In this document: positions 1,131 to 32,762 of the stretch, piece after piece
Layout: each line of letters begins with the position of its first letter
How positions within the stretch are numbered: the stretch's first letter is position 1
Notes under the pieces: model-generated
Database searches by the model: none
Told to the model about the DNA's origin: nothing
Seen by the model: the letters and a program-made list of their open reading frames with translations, nothing else
Position numbers and translations under genes: made by a program
From: a virus
Direction: 5' to 3' (one strand)
IMG/VR virus record: IMGVR_UViG_3300021373_002013
Coordinates: 1-32,762 of that record
Length of the DNA: 32,762 nucleotides

Positions 1131-1248
1131 CTGTAAAACCTATTGAAACCAATAGTAAAACTATTTTGAGTATATCTTCGACCGAAGTCATTGATAGTGT
1201 AAAAGCTGATGTATTCAGCATCAGTACTTTTAAATCCTGAGTATCCAT
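1084..1248 (-). CDS. 54-residue single-pass membrane protein, holin-like candidate
   Basis: This short gene reads from ATG at 1248 to TAG at 1084-1086. The start shares one base with the previous stop (TAATG), as at neighbouring junctions, which supports it being real. Residues about 26-43 (ILKIVLLLVSIGFTVARW) form one membrane helix. The amino end is acidic to neutral and the tail is basic (HEIHKRNKDNK), so the positive-inside rule puts the carboxyl end in the cytoplasm. Size, topology and position late in the operon fit a pinholin or a small accessory lysis protein. Two exported proteins follow it directly. No endolysin is visible in the window, so the lysis role is unproven. The opposite-strand frame over this stretch is a shadow. 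Confidence 0.78.
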   Translation of the reverse strand: MDTQDLKVLMLNTSAFTLSMTSVEDILKIVLLLVSIGFTVARWHEIHKRNKDNK

Positions 1249-1523
1249 TATTTTTTTCTTTTAAGTGATTTGACCCTTCTTGGTTTTCCTGCTGGTTGTC
1301 CTAATCTTTTCTTCTCACGAATCTTTTTAGCTTTCTCGGAAGAAGACATTTCTCCGGATGTTTTTGGTGTTTTACTGGATACTCTTTTGCTTGGTCTACA
1401 ATATGGTACGCCTCTACCGTCGCCTTTTCTACGACCGCAAGGTTTACCTGTTCTTACGTCAACCCATTTTTCTTTGAACCAACGTTTAAGCGATGCTCCC
1501 TTCTTAGTTTTTCTTACTGCCAT
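1248..1523 (-). CDS. Small basic Cys-containing phage protein, DUF5872-like
   Basis: The protein has 91 residues and is extremely basic, with over 30 Lys or Arg. The first half holds the pattern LKRWFKEKWVDVRTGKPCGR followed by a PYCRPSKRVSSKTPKT segment, with cysteines at 29 and 42. The tail is a run of Lys/Arg-rich turns and ends in KRKK. I recall this WFKEKWVD...GKPCG...YCRP layout from small proteins in phages and giant viruses annotated as DUF5872; the match is from memory. High charge and two cysteines suggest nucleic-acid or virion binding, but no function is established here. Both ends use one-base TAATG overlaps, so it is one of four coupled small genes behind the ejection cassette. 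Confidence 0.88.
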   Translation of the reverse strand: MAVRKTKKGASLKRWFKEKWVDVRTGKPCGRRKGDGRGVPYCRPSKRVSSKTPKTSGEMSSSEKAKKIREKKRLGQPAGKPRRVKSLKRKK

Positions 1524-2054: not shown

Positions 2055-5000
2055 TTAATAAATTTTTATTTTTTTAGTTGACTTTCGTTTTTTCTTTTTA
2101 GGTTGTTTCCATTCTAATTCCCACTTAGCCCAACCTAAAGCATTAGCTATTCTCATCCAATCTTCATTTTCAGAGTCTAAAGCGTCTTTTATATTTGTTA
2201 TTTTTTTGATTCCTCTGTCAAGTGGTATATTTGTACTCGCACTAACTAAATTACCTAAAGCTAAAGCAGCAGGATTATCTATAGCAAAACCCTTTTCTTT
2301 TATTTCTTTTTTATTCCATTGAAAAGTTCTATTTGCTGACACAACTTTTTTAATTTTAGATGAAATTGGAGGAGATAAATTCAATAATTCAATAGCAGTA
2401 TCTTGAGGGCTGCCTTTATCCGCCATTTTTATTATAACATTTTTAAGTGTAGATATTACTGCCCCATGAAAACCAATACCTCTTAATAATGAATCCGCCA
2501 TACCATTTGCAATTCTAGCACTTTTATTTTTTAAAAGCTCATCATCAGGATCATTACCAAACATCATAGCAAATAAAGCTTGTTGTAATGCGTTAAACAT
2601 AATATTTTGTATAACACCATAATACATTATCTTAGATATGTTAGTTTTATCATCTCCACGTCTATTTATAAGATCACTAGCAGCTTTTTGCATTATTCTA
2701 GCATATTGTGATGGTGTGTTTGCAAAAGCTAATATAACGCGCCCTAATTCACTAGCTTGTTGTTGGCTAATTCTATCAGGTCTGCTTGATTGCTGAGACT
2801 CTTCGGATATTTCTCTAAAATCTAAAAAGGCTTTTTGCTCAGCTTCAGTTTTTGACATACCATCTTTGATATATGAATTAATTCTATTTCTATAAAAAGT
2901 AGCCCCACCAGAAGATATTGCAAAACTATCTGCTATTTGTGTTGGTAAAAACCCTAATTTTAATATTTTAGCTACAAAAGCTTTTGCTTTATTACCTGAT
3001 TCTGCTGCTATTTCGGCAATATCAGCTTCATTAACATTTATTTTTAATCCATTACGCCTTGTTACTAGATAATCTGAATTCATTAAAAACATTACATCTT
3101 TCCAATACTGTGGCTGATTAGCAAATGCCGCCGCGGCTTTTAACGGGTTGTTATCATTCCAATTTAAATAATTCACTGCAGATATTGTTTGAAGAACAGC
3201 TGATCTAGAATTAAAAAACATTATTGTTCCTACTGAACCATTTATCCAATCAACAAGTCTATTTGTTAAAGCGTCGCCGCCTTTGGATTTTCTGTTAGTT
3301 CCAGTTTTCATACGCTCAAGCATGTTTTCTAAAGCTAGTCTGTATTTTTTACCATATGCAGCCTCTAGTTTATTTAAATTTGTTTCAGAAAATATTATAT
3401 CAACATTTTGTTGCCATTTTTCCAAAGCTTGTTTTCTTGAGTCTGTGTTTAATCCTTGCAATAAATCTGTATTTATGTTGCCAGCTAGCCAATTTTTATC
3501 TGGCTTTATGTATCCATCTTCATTTATTGTCATTAAATTGTTAGCAAAATTTCTTAAAGAATTATCTTTAGCAACAAATTTATTTAATTCTTTTTTATCA
3601 ATTTGAGATAATCCATCAATTTCAAAACCATTTTGTGTCCATATATAAACTCTAATTGCTTGATCAACAGTAAAAGGTTCTCCAGGAACTTTTTCATTTA
3701 AATCTTTAGGTGATAATTTGGATAATTTTGTAATTTCATTATATTTATCGGCCATTTTTACTCTGGTATTAGATATATCAACCATTGCTTGGGCGTAAAG
3801 ATCTGTTATATTTTTTTCAATCCATTTTATTTGTCTATCTCCTTCTTTTCCTTTTCCAATAAATTTATACATTAACCCCATAAAATCTTGTGCTGATGGA
3901 GGTATGCCTATTATATCAAACCTACCTTTGTCTTTACCAGCAACAGTGGCTTTAGCTCTAGCATATCTTTTTCTTGATTCAATTTTTGTAGAATTTTCTA
4001 AAATATCATTAAACTCAACATTTAAATCTATACTTTCACTAGGTTTTATATTTGTAAACACTTCCGCGGTTTGCGGTCCAGCCTCTATTGTTTTAGGTTT
4101 TACAACAGCATCATTATTGCCAAAAAATAAATAGGCTCTTATGTCAAATTTTGTTTTTGTATTATTTGCACGGCTTTGGGCAGTTAAGCTAGTTTTTATA
4201 ACAGTGTCTAATCCAAAATCGTAAATATCTTGGATTTTTAATTTTAAAGGGTTTACTCCCAATGATACCCATCCTTTGTCTCCGAAGTACATGTATTGAT
4301 CACCCTTATTTTTATACAATTTAACTATCGGCGCTACCGTAGGTAATGTTTTTACAGATGTTCTGCTAATACGCTTTTGTAACCATTTTTCTATTTTTAA
4401 TGGTTTATTATTCGCGTCTTTTTCCGTTGGGTGAAATTTATCTGTAATTACGAACCCCTCTGAATCTAATTCATAAGATATTTTTGCTTTATTAAATTCT
4501 TCAATTATTTTATTAGTTATTTTGTCGGCTTCTGCAAACATTTCATTCGCTATTTCTTCGCCAAATTCTTTTTTTATTTTTACTTTACCATTTGTAGACC
4601 CTATTTTGTCGCTAATAGAATTTTTAATTTCAAACCCGTATTTTTTTCCATTAAGCTCAACGGCTATATCAATACCTGTATCCCCGGTTTTTAATTGTTC
4701 TAATTCCGATAAGTTAAGTATTTTTATATTCGGGACTAAAGCCTCAAGCTCTTTGGCTACAAAATACTCTAGTGCTTGGCCTTTTCTTTTTGATAAATCT
4801 AAGCCTTTGTATTTTTGTTGTCCTGCTAATAAAGCGGCCCAAAATATATTAAAATTTTCTTGTAAAGCAATACCATCTAAAGAATTTATAAGTTCTATTA
4901 TTGTAGCGGAGTCTGAAAATTTAAAATCTGTAGCTCTATCAATTTCTTTTGCAACTTGTGATAAGTAATTGTCATCAAACTGCTCCCCTTGCATTTCAAC

Positions 5001-8000
5001 AATGCTTTGTATTTTATCTTGTATTTCCGGATCTCTTATAACGTCTAACGTAGCGTCAAAAGCAATTTCTTCAGCTAATGCTTCTGCTAATGCTGTTTTT
5101 CTTGTTCCTTGTGTAGACCTACCAACATCTTCACCTAAAAAATAATTTACAAATTCTTTATTTTTTATTTTCTTTTTTCTAAATATAGGATTTCCTTGGG
5201 CGGTTTTTTCTCTTTTTTGTTTTCCATTTTCATCTAAAACAGGCTCTGCAAAAGGTTTAAATCTTTTGTTTAATGTAGATTGAGGTATTATACTATATAA
5301 TAAATCAAAATTAACTTGTAAAAATTGTTTATAATCAACACCTCTTCCTAAAAATTTAGCTATTGTAGGTTTTAATTCTGTTCTAAACGCTTTTTGTAAT
5401 TTTTTTCTAAAATCTTTTGATTTAACAGATGGTAATTTTGTACCAAAAGTTTTAATAACAGAATTTTTAACTTTATTTACAATACTTTCTGTTAACCCTA
5501 AAGATGTTCTAAGGCTTTCTCTTTGATTAAGTATTTCGGGGTCAGTAACATCATTAGTTACACTTTTTGCTTCTGAAACATCTTCTGTAAATTTAGTTTC
5601 AAACATTTGAGACGCTATTGTTTTACTTTTTTGTTTTAATCTAAAAAGTATATGCGAAGCTAAAACAGGATTTCTTGTAACATCATATTTTCTTAAAGAG
5701 CCAAGTATTCCATACACAGGGTCTGAAACAAGAGCCATTTCAAAATCTTCCTTCATTTCTGAAAACTTAGGAACATCTTTATATTTATTTACAATTTTTT
5801 GAATTTCTTGTTTTATATATTTATTATTAGCAATTGACATTATTGCATCTTCTCCTTTATTTTCAAACATTGTTTGTATTGCTTGAGAATCAGAGGCCGC
5901 AATTTTTAATTCTGGTTCAGCTTGAACTTTTTTATCTGCTTCAATAATTAAATCGCTTAGACCAGCTTTTAATTTTATTAAATCGGTTTTATCTAAAGTT
6001 CCGTCTTTTATTCTTTGACCAAAGTTTATAAGTAAATTTATAGCATCGGTTTGACCTTTAAAATTAATTTTAGTACCTGCAACTAAATTCATGCTTTCGG
6101 CAATTGAACCTAAAAATGTTTTATTTTTAATATTGTCGGGTTTAATTTTACCCTCTGCTACTCTTTCTAAAAAGTTAACAACTATTTCTTCAGCATTAGT
6201 AATATCCGCTGACTGAGCGCCTCTTATTCGCTTGCCTTTAAATTCAACACCAAATATTTGGTCATAAACTTTTTTATTGTTTACTTTTAGCCATTTTTCT
6301 ATTTGTTCAGCTATTGGTTTATATTGATCACTTTTTATTCCTAAAGATTCAAACAATGCCCCATGTGAAATTTCATGATACCCTGTACCTGCCCTTTCAT
6401 TTCTAACAGAATTTTCTTTAGATATTAATTCATAAGACTTGCCTTTTAATTTAAATTGAATTCCGTTTGTTATGCCTTTTTTAAATTTGTTTATAGTGTT
6501 TTGATCAATATTTGCTCCAACTTTTGTTACGTAATCTAATAGTTGATCGTTAGTTTGAAATGACTTAAATTCGTTATTCAGCCCTTTTATTTTTCTACTG
6601 GATGCTACCGATTCATCAAACTTATCTTCAAAATACAATTCAGAAGCTTTTTGAAAAACTTTGGTTTCTGACGTATTAGTATTGTAAAATTCAAAAGAAT
6701 CTTTAGCTTTTTGTATGTAACTATTGTATTTTTTATTATCAGAAACTTTTAACAAACTAAATTCATTACCAAAAGATTCTTCGCTTCTAAACAAATCTCT
6801 AACTTCTTGTAAATTATTAAATTCACTTTGCAATATATTTAACGCTAATTTTTTTTGTTTATTAGTTAACTTGTTATCGTTTAGTATTTTCGAAGCCTCA
6901 GATCTTAATGTTTCTTGTTTAGATGTTATATCCATGTAACCCTGAAAAGCTTCTTTAGATATTTTTTCGTTTATTTTATTACTAATATTTGATAATATAT
7001 TTTCGTTTGCTTCTGTTAATGTTTTTACTTGTTGTTCAAAGCTTTTAAAAGTAGACGAATTTTCGTCTAAATTTGCCATACTCTGTTTTATTTCGTTAAT
7101 TTTATTATTATTAGCTCGAAATTCTTTATATTTATCTACATCGCCAAATTTCTGCATGAACATTCCTGCGGTTGCAGGAGCAGAATTCATTAAAACTGAA
7201 AACATAGCACCAGAAAAAGCAGAGTGATCTACGTTTTCAAAAGTGGGCCTTCCTGTTAAAATATTTTGTGTCATAGTGGTTAAAGACTCACCACCAGATT
7301 CAATAAAAACTGGTGCAGCAATTTGTTGACCAAAATAACTCATCATACCATCCTTAGCCACTTTTCTTCCAGATTTTGACAGGGCGTTAAAAGTGTTTCT
7401 TAAAAGCAAATAGCTGGGGGCAACACCAAACAAACCTTCTGCCATACCATAACCGGATGAAATGAGCATTTTTTCTCCAACGCTACGGCTAGACATAGGG
7501 TCTAAAGCATCTTGCTTTGTCATAGTGGCATATTGCTCTCCCGCGCTTGGTAAACTTGCTGCTACTCCTGCAGCTATTGTTTGCCCTGCAGCCCCAGCAC
7601 CTGCAAAACTAGCAAGCCCACCAGATGCCGCCATCGATGCAAATATAGGTAATTGAGTTGATATTTCTTGCCCTAAAAATCTACCGAAGTTGCCATCTTT
7701 AAAAGCATCTTTAAATTTTATATCAGGAGAATATTTATTCATTGTTGCATCTACATAATTACTCCAAACAAGATCTCGTTCATCTAAAGCTTTTAAAGTT
7801 TTTTCTTTCTGCTCTTCATCGTCTTCAAAAAGTATAGTAGAAATTCTTGTCGAGTAATTTAAACCATATACCATGGCACTCCCAAGTCCAGTACCAATTT
7901 TAGCTAAATGTTTATTAAAATGATCATAATCTTTGCTTAATAAATCAGCGCTAATAGCCATTTGTTGAATATCGGCACCTTGTGTTTTTAAATAAGGAAG

Positions 8001-9057: not shown

Positions 9058-10941
9058 TTATAGTTTTAATGCTTCTCTTTGAAACCACTTCATTGATGCC
9101 AACTGAGGATAGTTTTTTGCTAAAGATTGAATTGCTTGTTTTCTCGATAAACCTTGATTTTGTGCGTATTTATTTATAACATAAGGTCTAAATTTTGCCA
9201 TTCTATTATCAGATAAACTTGAAGGGTTTTGTATATATTTAAAATAAAATTGCTGATCAAAATAAGTTTTATAAGCTTGAGACTTTGTGCTTTCATTTAA
9301 TTCGCTTTCTTTGCCTTGTAATCTTTTGTAAAACTTTTCAAGATCGTAGGGGTCGAACATGTCAAACTTTAAACTTTTCCTTGGCCCTTGTTCCATCACT
9401 GCGTTTGGTAAATTCATCAACGCTTGATTTTTTTCATCTTCACTTTTTGTTGCGTAATCAGGGCTGCTAATTAATTCTTTATATTCTTTACTATTTTTAT
9501 CAATACCAGAAACTAACTTACTTTTTGGTTGAAAAGATAAAGTTAAAATACCTTGAGCATTTATATTAGAGCTTTCTACACTTCTTACTACACCACCGTC
9601 ACTTATTTCATTTATACCCGATAAATTATAATCCATAATAGACCCTTTAAATTCATCACCATCTGTTTTTTCTCTATTTGAGCTAAAATTATTGCCAGGA
9701 TTTGCAACTATGTTTTGTATTTCTGAACTTATATCAAAAGTCCTATTCATCATTTGTTGAGGATATAATTTACTTGCATCATTACCACCACCGCCACCGC
9801 TGCCGGTTCCAGTGTTAGTGCTATCTTGTGGAGCTTTATAAAATTGATCTAATACACCTTCATTTTCAATTTGATTTATAGCATACTGTGCTACTATTTC
9901 TGATTTGCCCCTTTGGGATTGTTTAAAAATATCTTGAGCAGTTTTTTCATCAACACCTAATGTTTGTTGAATTTCTTTAGAGCCAATATTCATAGGCAGG
10001 TCTAAAATTCTTTCAACTTGATCGGTAGTTAATTTACCCCCCAGTGCATTATTCATTATTTCAATCTTTTTTTCTTGAGAAATATCAACATGATTATTAT
10101 ATATATCATTAGCAAGAGATAATTCATTTCTAGTCATGTTTTCCTTATCTAACCCCATAGAATTATATACTGTTCTTTTGACTTCATCCATAGCTATTTG
10201 ATAGCTGGTCTCTTTATTATTTGCTTTATCCGCTGTGACTAAATTTTTTAAATTAGCCATCGATCTATTTTTTGCTGATTTTAAATAATCGTCCTTTTTG
10301 CCGTCAATAATTTCTCTTTGCTCTTTGCCAGATGATGTAAAAATAGTTTGTAAAAGTTCTGGTGAATATTTTTTGCCGTTAACTATCATGTAACTTTCAA
10401 ACTTACCTAATTGTTTATTATAAGTAAAACTAGGTTTTGATGTGCCCATTTTTATAGCATCATAAATAGCCTTTTTTTCTTTATACTTTGCTGCGCCCCG
10501 GTCCTCATCTTCGTTAATATCTAAACCGGAAGTATATACATAGTCCATTACTGTATTTATGGGAGTAACAGCGGATTGAAAACTATTTTGCGCATCTCTC
10601 AACCCTTTTTTATCCAGTCTGTTTTCTTTAGGCATTGAGAATAAACCACCTAAGCCTTTTTTAGTAGGTTGTTCAACTTTTAAAGCTTCAGAATAAAATT
10701 GTTCTAATGCTTGATTTATTTGTTCTTTTGTTTGTGTGCCATTATCTACAGCGGCTTGCAATTCTTTTTCCATTGCTTCTCCTTGCTCATAAATAGAATC
10801 TTCATATTCTTTTCTATCAGCAATCATTTCTTCGCCTTTTTGTATACCAGCTTGTAACCCTTTATTAAAAGTTTCTGTAAAAGCTTTTACGCCTGCAGTA
10901 TAATCTACTGTATATGATTTTGGATTTTCGTATGCTCCCAT
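9058..10941 (-). CDS. Internal virion / ejection protein, T7 gp15-like position
   Basis: The protein has 627 residues, is mostly helical and charged, and has no signal peptide or clear membrane helix. Residues 1-110 look like a coiled coil with repeated Glu/Lys heptads. A flexible Gly-rich linker (GTGSGGGGGND, about 375-387) separates the helical first part from a second part with more beta strands. The tail (about 590-627) is helical, ending in MKWFQREALKL. It lies six bases after the 277-residue Gly-zipper protein and four bases before the giant protein. A mid-sized, mainly helical protein in this middle place matches the layout of T7 gp15, which helps form the channel that carries DNA across the envelope. 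I infer the role from context and composition; no sequence motif proves it. Confidence 0.82.
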   Translation of the reverse strand: MGAYENPKSYTVDYTAGVKAFTETFNKGLQAGIQKGEEMIADRKEYEDSIYEQGEAMEKELQAAVDNGTQTKEQINQALEQFYSEALKVEQPTKKGLGGLFSMPKENRLDKKGLRDAQNSFQSAVTPINTVMDYVYTSGLDINEDEDRGAAKYKEKKAIYDAIKMGTSKPSFTYNKQLGKFESYMIVNGKKYSPELLQTIFTSSGKEQREIIDGKKDDYLKSAKNRSMANLKNLVTADKANNKETSYQIAMDEVKRTVYNSMGLDKENMTRNELSLANDIYNNHVDISQEKKIEIMNNALGGKLTTDQVERILDLPMNIGSKEIQQTLGVDEKTAQDIFKQSQRGKSEIVAQYAINQIENEGVLDQFYKAPQDSTNTGTGSGGGGGNDASKLYPQQMMNRTFDISSEIQNIVANPGNNFSSNREKTDGDEFKGSIMDYNLSGINEISDGGVVRSVESSNINAQGILTLSFQPKSKLVSGIDKNSKEYKELISSPDYATKSEDEKNQALMNLPNAVMEQGPRKSLKFDMFDPYDLEKFYKRLQGKESELNESTKSQAYKTYFDQQFYFKYIQNPSSLSDNRMAKFRPYVINKYAQNQGLSRKQAIQSLAKNYPQLASMKWFQREALKL

Positions 10942-28200: not shown

Positions 28201-30282
28201 TTAATAATCAAATGTTGCACTTCTAAATGTAATATTTGCCTCAATAGCATAATTATCATAATTAGTTTGTCTATTTGGTGTAAACCCTAGAGAATTTCCA
28301 GAAATTGAGAATGTCCCTGCAGACCTTGAGTTTCCAAGTGTTGTATGGCTAATTGTTGCTTGTGTTAAATTTTGCATTGTACCTCCAGAATCAGAAGTAA
28401 AATCAACAGTACACATTGCTTCTGTCCATTGAGAAGAATTAGCACTAACACCTCTACCAAACATTGTTATCTTAACACTAATTTGTGAGTATGTACCGGC
28501 AGATGTAGCATTACTTATGATAGTTATAAATGGGTTACTAAAAGCTGAATTTCCATAGTACCATCTTATAAAACGATGATTAGAATGCATAAATTTCATT
28601 TCACCATCAGCTGTAATTCTTAATTTTTCACTATCTGTCCCTGCGGTAACAACAACATCTCCAACGCCACTATTTGTTAAAATTCTACTTCCTATCCTTA
28701 ATCCATTGTTTTCCCATTGCATAAATTGAGAAGTACCGTGATAATTTTTAACAGTTAATGCCGAATTTGTTAATGAGCTACCTGGTGTTGTATCAGTGTT
28801 TTCTATATGAACATAACCTAAAGCATCATCAGGATCAAAATCCGCTGACACATGCAGCCTAGTGCTGGGCGAAGCCGTCCCAATTCCTATATCTCCTGAA
28901 TTGTCAATAACCATCCTAGTAGTTCCATTATACCAAAATATACCACCAGGTGAAACTATACTTGCATTTGAACCATTATCACCAACGCCATTTACCCAAT
29001 AACCACCACCAGTTCGACTATTATTCATTTTAATATGTGAACCGTTAGAGTCAGCTTCAGCTAAAGTTATTCTTTGGTTATTAGTATTAGCAATACCCAT
29101 ACCAACATAACCATTACTTCCAATACGCATTCTTTCACTACTACTAATAGCAAACACTAATTCGCTTTGACCTCTAACACACATATTTGTGCTTCCAGCA
29201 TTAGCCAACCCCTGAGCATTACCAATAAAACCTAAAGGTGTAGAACCCTGATAATACTCAGTGTATGGTCCATCAGAATTTGATGATTCAAATTTTGCAA
29301 TACTTTGGTCACTTGTAACTATATGTAATTTAACATCTGGACTTGTTTCTCCAATTCCTACATTTCCTCCATTTTTAACTATTAATTTAGTAGTTCCCCC
29401 TGTTCTTAAAAATAAATCATCTACAGAATTAATAATAATATTTTCATTAGCAGAACTTTGTATTAATAAATTATCATCTGCATCATCACCAATAAAATGC
29501 GAATCCCCAAAAGTAATATTACCTGCAAAAGTTGCACCACCTGCTGAAGAAGTAATATCTCCCGATATATAAATATCTCGCCATTGATTTGTTGTACTAC
29601 CTAAATCATTAGCACCATTAGCATCATTACCGTTTGAGTATGTACCCACAAAAGCTACACTATCTTGTTTGAATCCACGACCACCATCGGTTGTAAAAAA
29701 AGGTGCTTTTACAAAACCTGCAAAAGTTGCGTTTCCTCCTGATGTAATTGAACCGCCTAAATATAAATCTTTAAATCTAATATTAGAAACTCCTAAATCA
29801 ACTGCATTATCGTTATTTGAAGTAGCAGTAGTTGGGCTTATTGCAGAAGCAGCGTCGTTAATCCTTAAACCAATAGCACCTTGAGTTATTGCAATATCCC
29901 CACCAATAGAAGGTTTTATAATTCCTGTGCCTACAGTTACATTTCCTGCAAAAGTTGCATTACCAGTAAATGACGGTGAAGCTAATGGTGCTTTTAAACC
30001 TAAACTAGTTGCAGTTGTAGTCGCAAAGTTTGGATCATCACCTAATGCTGCAGCTAATTCATTTAGCGTATCTAATGTAACCGGTGCTGAATCTGTTATT
30101 GCTGCAACTATATCTGTTTGTGTGGCAAAACCATTTGTTGAAAGGTAAGAACTTACTCTTGAATCTGTATAATACAAATTGCTACCCTCACCTATATCAG
30201 AAGTGGTTATACCATGAGATGCGTCAAGATTAGCAGACGTGATTACACCATCCGCTATAAGTTTTACCTTAGTTAATGCCAT
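28201..30282 (-). CDS. Tail fibre with GIGT-type repeats (second fibre)
   Basis: The protein has 693 residues. The amino end (MALTKVKLIADGVITSANLD) and NLYYTDSRV (residues 35-43) are typical of phage fibre proteins attached to the tail or neck. The shaft is made of Thr/Gly/Asn repeats, including SFTGNATFAGNVTVGTG near 107-123 and the recurring pattern GNVGIGETSPDVKLHI and GDIGIGTASPSTRLHV. The last 130 residues form a different beta domain, probably the receptor-binding tip. I see no peptidase S74 chaperone signature at the end. It shares repeat modules with the fibre upstream. Likely role: trimeric host-recognition fibre. Confidence 0.85.
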   Translation of the reverse strand: MALTKVKLIADGVITSANLDASHGITTSDIGEGSNLYYTDSRVSSYLSTNGFATQTDIVAAITDSAPVTLDTLNELAAALGDDPNFATTTATSLGLKAPLASPSFTGNATFAGNVTVGTGIIKPSIGGDIAITQGAIGLRINDAASAISPTTATSNNDNAVDLGVSNIRFKDLYLGGSITSGGNATFAGFVKAPFFTTDGGRGFKQDSVAFVGTYSNGNDANGANDLGSTTNQWRDIYISGDITSSAGGATFAGNITFGDSHFIGDDADDNLLIQSSANENIIINSVDDLFLRTGGTTKLIVKNGGNVGIGETSPDVKLHIVTSDQSIAKFESSNSDGPYTEYYQGSTPLGFIGNAQGLANAGSTNMCVRGQSELVFAISSSERMRIGSNGYVGMGIANTNNQRITLAEADSNGSHIKMNNSRTGGGYWVNGVGDNGSNASIVSPGGIFWYNGTTRMVIDNSGDIGIGTASPSTRLHVSADFDPDDALGYVHIENTDTTPGSSLTNSALTVKNYHGTSQFMQWENNGLRIGSRILTNSGVGDVVVTAGTDSEKLRITADGEMKFMHSNHRFIRWYYGNSAFSNPFITIISNATSAGTYSQISVKITMFGRGVSANSSQWTEAMCTVDFTSDSGGTMQNLTQATISHTTLGNSRSAGTFSISGNSLGFTPNRQTNYDNYAIEANITFRSATFDY
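28868..28896. repeat. Fibre repeat core in the second fibre gene
   Basis: This is a copy of the same core found six times in 31108-32762, with several substitutions. It encodes GDIGIGTASP. A looser copy lies near 29339. Shared cores in two fibres give a chance for recombination between them. Confidence 0.75.
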
Positions 30283-30292
30283 AATTTATTTT

Positions 30293-30631
30293 TTATTCAA
30301 CAGTCTCAATAAAAGGTGAGTGGAATGTTTTACTCACTGGTGCTTTTGATAATGCAATTTGAGCATCTAAACTAGCTTTCATAGCTTCAACATCTAATGC
30401 TGCTTCAAGCCAACCAACAACGTCTGATTCAGTTAAATCCGTATAGGGTGTGAAATTATCAGCGTCATATTCAAGACTGTGTGTTCCTATTGAGCTCGCT
30501 GAATGAGTATTAGGAGCTTCACCCTCTGAAGCTGAATAGCCCCAGTGAATTGTGTCTACAACGTTTGATTTTCCGTCGTGTGAAATTTTTGCGTCCAACG
30601 CATTAATTGTCCATTTGTAAGTTATTGCCAT
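30293..30631 (-). CDS. Small conserved phage protein, DUF7936-like
   Basis: The protein has 112 residues. It opens with ITYKWTINALDAKISHDGKS and continues VVDTIHWGYSASEGEAPNTH; the later part, LTESDVVGWLEAALDVEAMK then ASLDAQIALSKAP, is helical. I recall this combination as the family called DUF7936 in marine and cyanophage genomes, often near fibres or tail genes; the name is from memory. No enzyme motif, membrane segment or signal peptide is seen. It sits between two fibre genes with gaps of 10 and 19 bases, so it is expressed with them. It may be a minor fibre-associated structural protein or a fibre assembly helper. Confidence 0.85.
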   Translation of the reverse strand: MAITYKWTINALDAKISHDGKSNVVDTIHWGYSASEGEAPNTHSASSIGTHSLEYDADNFTPYTDLTESDVVGWLEAALDVEAMKASLDAQIALSKAPVSKTFHSPFIETVE

Positions 30632-30650
30632 TTTTTAATTATTTATTTAT

Positions 30651-32762
30651 TTATAATAGTTTTCTAAATCTAAAAGATATTGGTGCAGATGATAAAGCGT
30701 TAGCTGTTTTAATTTGTAATTCACACCTGTTTGCATAACTGCTTCCGTCTGCTGTATGTAGTTTTGTTCTTAATTCTAAAGTATTGTTATTTCGCGCGTG
30801 CCCCGCCATATGTAAAGGTATTTCATCTATATCATCATCATTGGTGCTAGTATGAAACCAACTCATTATACCGCTCCAGTACATGCTGTACCAAGCGCCT
30901 CCAGTGCTCCCATGCGCATCACTGTACACTTGAACCGCGAACGTTCCCGAGCCGCCTATATTAGACAAACTAATATCTAAACTAGTCCATGTGTTTGCTG
31001 AAATTGAAACTGTTTTATTTATAGTAACTAGCCCATCCACAAAAGCACCTGCTTTAGGTACTAACCCCTCATGCGTAATTTCTCCCGCAACATCTAATTT
31101 TCTTTGTGGTGAAGTTGTCCCGATTCCTACGTTGCCTGTACTAGATTTTACTACCATTCTATATTGAGCAGCAGTACTATCATAAACAAAAAACCCAGAA
31201 GAATATGTATCTGTCCCAATTTGAAATGTAGGAGTATTTGTAAAGTTTACGTTCTGATGATAACTCGAGGTCATCCTTAATGTTCCATTAACATCTAATT
31301 TATAGCTAGGCGAAGTCGTCCCAATTCCTACGCTTCCTGAACTGTCAATACGCATTCTTTCACTTCCACCTGCAGCAAACTTCATAGCATCTTGGCCGTG
31401 ATTATAAGTCAAATATCCAGAATTTGTTGATATATTATCTCTAAAAATAATACCTGAATCTCCGTAATTTATTGTATCAAAAAAATAATAAGCATTTGTT
31501 GATGTTCCTGCTATTCCTTGTTGAATATACCCATCTGACCTTATACGCATTCTTTCTGTGCCACCTCCTGTGCCAGTTATAAATCTCACACCATTTTGAC
31601 CTCTTAAGAAAGAACCATCTACTGTAGAATCATAACCCACTGCGTGAGTACTATCTGTTGTAGTATTAAATCTTAATGATGCTGATGCTGTAATTCCTAC
31701 GTTTCCTGAAGTGTCTATAAGAAACGGATATGTATTTGCTTCAGTATTATAAACAAATAAAGAACCACTATTAAAAGCATCATTAACTCCTATTCTCCAT
31801 TCTCTTGTTGGAGATTTTAAAAATAATCTTGATGAGCTTGTTCCACTTGATGTTTCAACCTTTAATATTGCGTCTGCTGAATTTGTAACAGAAACGATAC
31901 CAGAACTGTCTATAATCATATTGGTAGTATATGTACCAGTGCTGGAATTATAATGAGCAAAATGTATTGATTCCGTATGGTCAGATGCTATTGTTAAACT
32001 ATCTAAGTCGGACAAATCTTCTCCAATAAAACTATAACCACCTAACTTTATAGTTCCCATTACGTGAAGCTTAGTGGCAGGCGATGTAGTTCCAATTCCT
32101 ACATTACCATTTGATAAAAAAGAAACTTTAGAATTACCCTCTTTATCTCTTAATCTTAATATTTCGCCACTGCTTCCATTCCCCGCATCTATCAACACAC
32201 CATTACCAGCCCCATTATAAGTGTTCCCAAACAGAGCAAGCCAATCATTTGTTATAGATTTAAAAACTGTAAATGTATAACCAGGTGAAGTTGTTCCAAT
32301 TCCTACGTTTCCTCCTGAAAAATGTGTAATTCCATTCGCTTTTAATTGTATTGTGGCTGAACCACCACTAAACATATCAAGTCGTGCATTAGTAGAAGTG
32401 CCATCGTGAAATAATCTAACTATATCTGTACCATCAGATTTTTCTAATAAAATGCCATCATCAGATGCGTCACTTCTAATGTTTAATTTAGTTGCAGGCG
32501 AAGTAGTTCCAATCCCTACATCGCCTCCATAAGGATTTAAAGAAAATGATGTGCCAGCGTTTTCAGCATTATTTATAGATTGTAAATATCCTCTTTCACT
32601 TCCTAATCCACCAAGATACATTGAAGATAAATCGTCGGCTCTATATTGTAATTTAAACTCTGATTTTGTAATTACATCAGATAAAGAATCAGAATTTAAA
32701 CTATTTAAGCTTTTAATATTAAGAGTTGCACTAGGTGAAGTAGTTCCAATTCCAACGTTTCC
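30651..32762 (-). CDS. Tail fibre with GIGTTSP repeats, 5' end beyond the window
   Basis: The frame is open to the right edge; an internal Met at 32621 is not a likely start because the same repeat module (GNVGIGTTSPSATLNI) continues in frame above it to 32762. At least 703 residues are present. The shaft has repeated units of about 67-79 residues, each opening with GxVGIGTTSPxxKLxV, often followed by short beta strands and ERMRIxSxG motifs (for example SGSERMRIDSSGSVG-like). The last 130 residues are a non-repeat beta domain ending FRFRKLL, a likely receptor-binding tip. No S74 chaperone signature is visible. This is probably a host-recognition fibre whose repeats could change in number by recombination. 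Confidence 0.85.
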   Translation of the reverse strand, partial: GNVGIGTTSPSATLNIKSLNSLNSDSLSDVITKSEFKLQYRADDLSSMYLGGLGSERGYLQSINNAENAGTSFSLNPYGGDVGIGTTSPATKLNIRSDASDDGILLEKSDGTDIVRLFHDGTSTNARLDMFSGGSATIQLKANGITHFSGGNVGIGTTSPGYTFTVFKSITNDWLALFGNTYNGAGNGVLIDAGNGSSGEILRLRDKEGNSKVSFLSNGNVGIGTTSPATKLHVMGTIKLGGYSFIGEDLSDLDSLTIASDHTESIHFAHYNSSTGTYTTNMIIDSSGIVSVTNSADAILKVETSSGTSSSRLFLKSPTREWRIGVNDAFNSGSLFVYNTEANTYPFLIDTSGNVGITASASLRFNTTTDSTHAVGYDSTVDGSFLRGQNGVRFITGTGGGTERMRIRSDGYIQQGIAGTSTNAYYFFDTINYGDSGIIFRDNISTNSGYLTYNHGQDAMKFAAGGSERMRIDSSGSVGIGTTSPSYKLDVNGTLRMTSSYHQNVNFTNTPTFQIGTDTYSSGFFVYDSTAAQYRMVVKSSTGNVGIGTTSPQRKLDVAGEITHEGLVPKAGAFVDGLVTINKTVSISANTWTSLDISLSNIGGSGTFAVQVYSDAHGSTGGAWYSMYWSGIMSWFHTSTNDDDIDEIPLHMAGHARNNNTLELRTKLHTADGSSYANRCELQIKTANALSSAPISFRFRKLL
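31108..32762. repeat. Fibre repeat units (about 29-base cores) within the first fibre gene
   Basis: A core of about 29 bases, of the form GGCGAAGTAGTTCCAATTCC on the plus strand, recurs at 31108, 31309, 32080, 32284, 32497 and 32734 with a few substitutions. Spacings are 201, 771, 204, 213 and 237 bases, all multiples of three. It encodes GNVGIGTTSP. A further copy is in the second fibre at 28868. Confidence 0.88.

Follow-up and report, generated by a model that had tools for sequence, protein, structure and literature searches.

A divergent candidate PD-(D/E)XK nuclease domain in an exchange slot of a giant phage protein related to virion proteins

The window, by which we mean the whole stretch of 32,762 nucleotides analysed here (IMG/VR record IMGVR_UViG_3300021373_002013), represents part of the genome of a tailed phage, with its genes on the minus strand. 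The gene order is GroES-like protein, terminase, portal, capsid region, virion proteins and giant protein, and the order of the virion genes is common to the window, Flavobacterium phage elemo (Elemovirus) and Cellulophaga phage phi38:1. The portal found its best matches in elemo (43% identity) and in an environmental podovirus (52%). The window probably derives from a marine podovirus-like phage of flavobacteria, the host being suggested by its relatives. The features of the giant protein gene and of the gene upstream of it are collected in Table 1. Downstream of the giant gene, a 91-aa protein (window 1248-1523) matched DUF5872 strongly (E 3e-15), and window positions 28201-32762 encode tail-fibre-like proteins with many GNVGIGTTSP repeats.

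Table 1. Features of the giant protein gene and its upstream neighbour (window coordinates)
Feature	Position	Strand	Basis or remark
627-aa gene upstream of the giant gene	9058..10941	-	Same position as phi38:1 gp100; context by position only
Giant protein gene, 2332 aa	2055..9053	-	ORF; last in the virion block; order as in Elemovirus and phi38:1
Region homologous to structural proteins, residues 386-753	6795..7898	-	elemo gp18; phi38:1 gp101 over residues 456-715
HExxH zincin-type site HEISH, residues 893-897	6363..6377	-	HExxH in most relatives
Exchange slot, residues about 1380-1671	4041..4916	-	dS contrast with the closest relative; other domains there in other relatives
PD-(D/E)XK nuclease-like domain, residues about 1415-1632	4158..4811	-	Alignment, models, leave-out profiles, profile-profile comparison
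E1429, motif I glutamate, first core helix	4767..4769	-	Invariant; aligns with the GxxYE motif in P-SSM2 and 7bgs
D1462, predicted metal-binding aspartate	4668..4670	-	Invariant
E1475 of ExK	4629..4631	-	Invariant
K1477 of ExK, predicted catalytic lysine	4623..4625	-	Invariant
Conserved C-terminal module, residues 1672-2316	2106..4040	-	About 70-98% identical in close, 43-60% in far relatives

From synteny and from the structural annotation of its homologues we infer that the giant protein is part of the virion. In a small search, residues 386-753 matched elemo gp18 (E 2e-9) and phi38:1 gp101 (E 1e-8), both of which are annotated as structural proteins. By analogy with podovirus ejection proteins (PMC8954989) and polyvalent proteins (PMC5512222), the giant protein would be delivered together with the DNA. 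The HExxH site that the first-pass annotation had placed in the same protein is present as HEISH, and about 80% of the giant-protein relatives keep an HExxH. Relatives of the C-terminal module were found in 466 viral stretches, 80 of which were examined in sequence. In bacterial genomes the module occurred only in 11 metagenome-assembled contigs, none of them with a nuclease of the window type (0/11). These contigs (L126-L136) come from assemblies labelled Flavobacteriaceae, Saprospiraceae, Woesearchaeota, Caldiserica and others, and are probably mis-binned phage contigs.

Proteins of the PD-(D/E)XK fold have an alpha-beta-beta-beta-alpha-beta core and cleave phosphodiesters in a metal-dependent manner; their hallmark is a beta hairpin bearing an Asp followed by (D/E)-x-K, to which the core helix ahead of it usually adds a Glu. 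From residue 1420 onward (window 4796-4605, minus strand) the giant protein reads LSKRKGQALEYFVAKELEALVPNIKILNLSELEQLKTGDTGIDIAVELNGKKYGFEIKNSISDK, and E1429, D1462, E1475 and K1477, which had been singled out beforehand, lie at exactly these positions in the translated minus-strand ORF. The hallmark order is found both in the sequence and in two predicted models: a Glu in a helix, then the Asp and the ExK across a hairpin. IMG/VR scans yielded relatives at increasing distance, namely the near L002, the mid-range L004, L023, L113 and L115, and divergent groups represented by L026, by L068, L069 and L073, and by L103; the relatives from L002 to L103 carry the domain at the same place in the giant protein. 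In a 293-column alignment of eight divergent domains from the slot (identity to the window domain 19-79%), only seven columns were invariant (E1429, D1462, G1469, E1475, K1477, Y1580 and K1583), and the E, D, E, K, Y and K stayed invariant after the addition of L113 and L115 (ten domains). Finding three residues named in advance among 7 of 293 invariant columns has a probability of about 8e-6 if all columns are taken as equal, although D, E, K and G are in reality conserved more often.

Next to this column invariance stand the shuffle controls, and on both grounds a chance motif was set aside. Each subfamily was scored with a profile built without it and compared with the best of 2000 shuffles. 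The window domain reached 37.5 bits (best shuffle 11.6), L026 56.9 bits and L068 38.7 bits, the best shuffles for the three lying at 9.6-13.8 bits. L103 was recovered out of sample (E 9e-18) with its E, D and ExK kept. With a profile lacking the window subfamily, L004 and L023 did not rise above shuffles; both match the window domain directly. The dN/dS ratio in the nuclease domain (0.18, against L002) shows at the sequence level that the domain is under purifying selection.

The domain has homologues in phrog_26930, a cyanophage family whose members are PSSM2_192 of P-SSM2 (YP_214424, 225 aa) and proteins of P-SSM5, P-TIM40, S-8S53 and S-H25. The L026-type domain matched this family with E 6e-14, and in BLASTP L026 matched PSSM2_192 with E 1e-14. 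Profile-profile comparison of the whole domain group with the cyanophage family gave 98.5% (E 4e-15), with the E, D and ExK in register. Two other phage matches were weak, that of L068 to P-SSM2 and that of L113 to S-8S53, the only phage match of L113. A Foldseek search with the domain model retrieved Q58MG2 of P-SSM2 (E 1.6e-5, prob 1.00), which we take to be PSSM2_192 because the two are equal in length (225 aa). The domain can thus be counted as a member of phrog_26930, the homology being significant and extending over the core and the C-terminal strands: the two share a catalytic core, a C-terminal YxxK...YI...G strand pair and the invariant G, E, D, E, K, Y and K. They differ in setting, as the cyanophage homologue is a stand-alone protein of 225-290 aa in a replication gene block, conserved near gp41 helicase-primase and mazG, whereas the window domain lies inside a giant, probably virion-borne protein. 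PSSM2_192 (L117:3617-4294) reads QGFAYE...APD...LEVK, a textbook GxxYE...APD...LEVK form, and looks like a compact PD-(D/E)XK nuclease. PDB 2k5w (BcR103A) is a further match (E 0.003), obtained with the paired C-terminal strands of this nuclease family (A10 profile 168-232).

Against the PDB, the only chain matched by the cyanophage profile was 7bgs, a Holliday-junction resolvase from a phage whose structure is solved (E 0.63, and 0.045 once L026 was added). The alignment was weak, but in register and better than any of 5000 shuffles, and the D-E-K spacing of 13 and then 15, as counted in the alignment, is equal in the window domain and 7bgs. A second Hjc-type resolvase, 4tkk, gave a weak profile match in register (E 1). 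We call Hjc the nearest type for the window's predicted nuclease; the two have E, D and ExK in one order and at equal distances, and share the GxxxE start. The likeness has its limits: the profile match is weak and sub-significant, and the C-terminal half of the domain falls outside it. Hjc-type resolvases are homodimers that cleave four-way junctions, and it is motif order and spacing only that the window domain shares with them.

Two AlphaFold predictions gave a helix, a strand, a strand-turn-strand unit and helices, in the first model with a helix at 46-61 and strands at 85-89 and 92-99, and in the same order in the second; this secondary structure agrees with a PD-(D/E)XK core. One of five models was confident in the first prediction, and the second had a pTM of 0.53. 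The first-pass annotation had proposed structure prediction as a check of its fold assignment, and the models do not refute it: by their positions in the predicted model, D1462 starts one strand and E1475/K1477 end the next, facing it across the same hairpin, but Foldseek with both models retrieved no solved nuclease from the PDB. We therefore base the fold assignment on sequence profiles. With the window domain itself, Pfam gave only a DUF4143 match, in register but below threshold (E 0.025), and Pfam, PHROGs and PADLOC returned nothing above cut-off; searched on its own against PDB sequences, the domain gave no match, and tblastn against phages and plasmids no significant relative. No nuclease domain was found in bacterial genomes searched with the core profile. 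The PD-(D/E)XK core proposed earlier is nevertheless supported by the invariance of E, D and ExK, by the homology to the cyanophage family and by the in-register match to 7bgs, and the domain very probably has a divergent PD-(D/E)XK nuclease fold.

The nuclease-like domain sits in a slot between a helical region and the conserved C-terminal module. The closest relative, L002, is nearly identical to the window giant protein on both sides of the domain. Synonymous divergence (dS) against L002 was 0.20-0.26 in the adjoining modules but rose to 0.49 directly ahead of the nuclease part and to 0.76 within it (about 3-fold), with sharp borders near residues 1380 and 1650. Because it is synonymous divergence that is higher, and with sharp borders, the difference points to exchange of a module by recombination and not just faster protein change; the pattern indicates that the content of the slot has been swapped between related phages.

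We took a census of the slot in 92 giant proteins or fragments, which include a few duplicates. The nuclease profile matched 16, an HAD phosphatase was present in 51 and an (E/Y/F)EHxxP domain in 42. The nuclease and the EHxxP domain never occurred together among the 92 (rough hypergeometric 3e-4, with duplicates removed and uncorrected for descent). Most giant-protein relatives have no nuclease of the window type, so the nuclease is not essential to the machine. The HAD phosphatase (VLDFDDT...ILTARP...FADD; seen in L113 at residues 1428-1590 and in 50 further giant proteins) lies directly ahead of the C-terminal module or of the nuclease, and is identified by its DFDDT motif and by weak matches to DUF2608 and to phage polynucleotide kinase (E 0.006). 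In L113 and L115 the HAD domain, which begins right after a window-like ATDFKFSDS, and the nuclease stand in tandem. The EHxxP domain is unrelated to the nuclease and lies in or beside the slot in L005 (residues 1517-1725), in L042, in L072 and in a further 39 giant proteins. Its signature is similar to the EH/DH-x-x-P with which HNH-type sites begin, and it had no library match.

The layout of the giant protein recalls several known systems. Polyvalent proteins, known from phages and conjugative elements (Iyer et al. 2017; PMC5512222), are likewise giant multidomain phage proteins with an HExxH peptidase-like site and enzyme domains, so that injected phage proteins with several enzymes are already known. 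They are defined by at least two domains of disparate activity, here the predicted activities of the HExxH site and the nuclease-like domain, joined by HAD in relatives. The polyvalent-like arrangement of two enzyme domains suggested for this protein is supported, about 80% of the relatives keeping HExxH. MuF toxins, among which virion-linked nucleases are predicted, have been reported solely from temperate phages (PMC5576092). They resemble it as phage head proteins whose effector domain varies and is in many cases a nuclease; however, they combine a MuF domain with an exchangeable C-terminus, whereas the exchangeable part of the window protein is internal. The giant protein had no Pfam MuF match, and identity with MuF toxins was rejected. 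Podovirus ejection proteins are similar in being large internal virion proteins with mosaic domains, but the review covering them does not mention nuclease domains (PMC8954989).

Could the stretch adopt some other alpha/beta fold, in which the order E...D...ExK is accidental? The failure of the fold search to find a solved nuclease and the purely sub-threshold Pfam matches would agree with this, but the homology to the cyanophage GxxYE...APD...LEVK family, the D-E-K spacing shared with 7bgs and the 0 of 5000 shuffles that aligned as well make it improbable. It is also conceivable, though very hard to credit, that the domain is a remnant that has kept the fold, is catalytically dead and holds or guides DNA. 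A free DNase inside the virion could endanger the packaged genome, and DNA binding is common among ejection proteins (PMC8954989); yet between subfamilies that share about 20% identity, the residues that never vary are the catalytic ones and few others. A pseudo-enzyme was set aside on the same ground, the catalytic residues being the most conserved.

We therefore lean, with some reserve, towards an active, divergent, Hjc-like PD-(D/E)XK nuclease in a giant virion ejection protein that would act on DNA early after entry. The giant protein would be packaged and would enter the cell together with the genome; its HExxH peptidase may release the nuclease domain, as proposed for polyvalent proteins; and the freed, metal-dependent nuclease would cut DNA in the newly infected cell ahead of phage transcription. 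Foreign DNA (the host chromosome, or resident or co-infecting elements) is the likeliest target, a choice we make only tentatively: exchange and non-orthologous replacement favour a role in conflict, against DNA of the host or of rivals. Three things speak instead for processing of the incoming DNA, in which the nuclease would be no weapon but would resolve branches, or trim or heal the ends, of the phage genome: the Hjc likeness, the replication-block context of the cyanophage homologue and the HAD neighbour. The nearest solved relative is a junction resolvase, the cyanophage homologue lies near gp41 helicase-primase and mazG, and in L113 and L115 the domain with weak similarity to polynucleotide kinase directly precedes the nuclease. 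Genome processing nonetheless appears rather unlikely to us, as the nuclease is absent from most relatives and near-identical phages swap the slot, which is more like the behaviour of a conflict effector.

What is new here is a predicted nuclease in an exchange slot just ahead of the C-terminal module. Effectors pre-loaded by phages act before any phage gene is expressed; to our knowledge, few nucleases have been described among them outside temperate phages. The conserved frame with its exchangeable enzyme bay in hundreds of viral contigs poses a concrete question about the function of injected proteins. We also offer the conjecture that very widespread marine phages carry a plug-in bay in a giant injected protein, holding one DNA-acting module each and swapped by recombination between near-identical phages. 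As part of the same conjecture, the module would be either a PD-(D/E)XK nuclease, for which there are three or more subfamilies that differ greatly in sequence, or the unrelated EHxxP domain, optionally with an HAD phosphatase. If true, such a bay would correspond to the tips of polymorphic toxins, but in an internal position, and would come into play during the opening minutes of an infection. The comparison also provides a predicted function, that of a PD-(D/E)XK nuclease, for the cyanophage family phrog_26930 in a conserved block of T4-like cyanophages. In two relatives the giant gene appears as two overlapping frames (L024, 9896-13906 and 13881-16091; L006, 8339-12811 and 12801-17234), through a frameshift or sequencing error or as a real split; in L024 the split falls inside the slot, just ahead of the C-terminal module.
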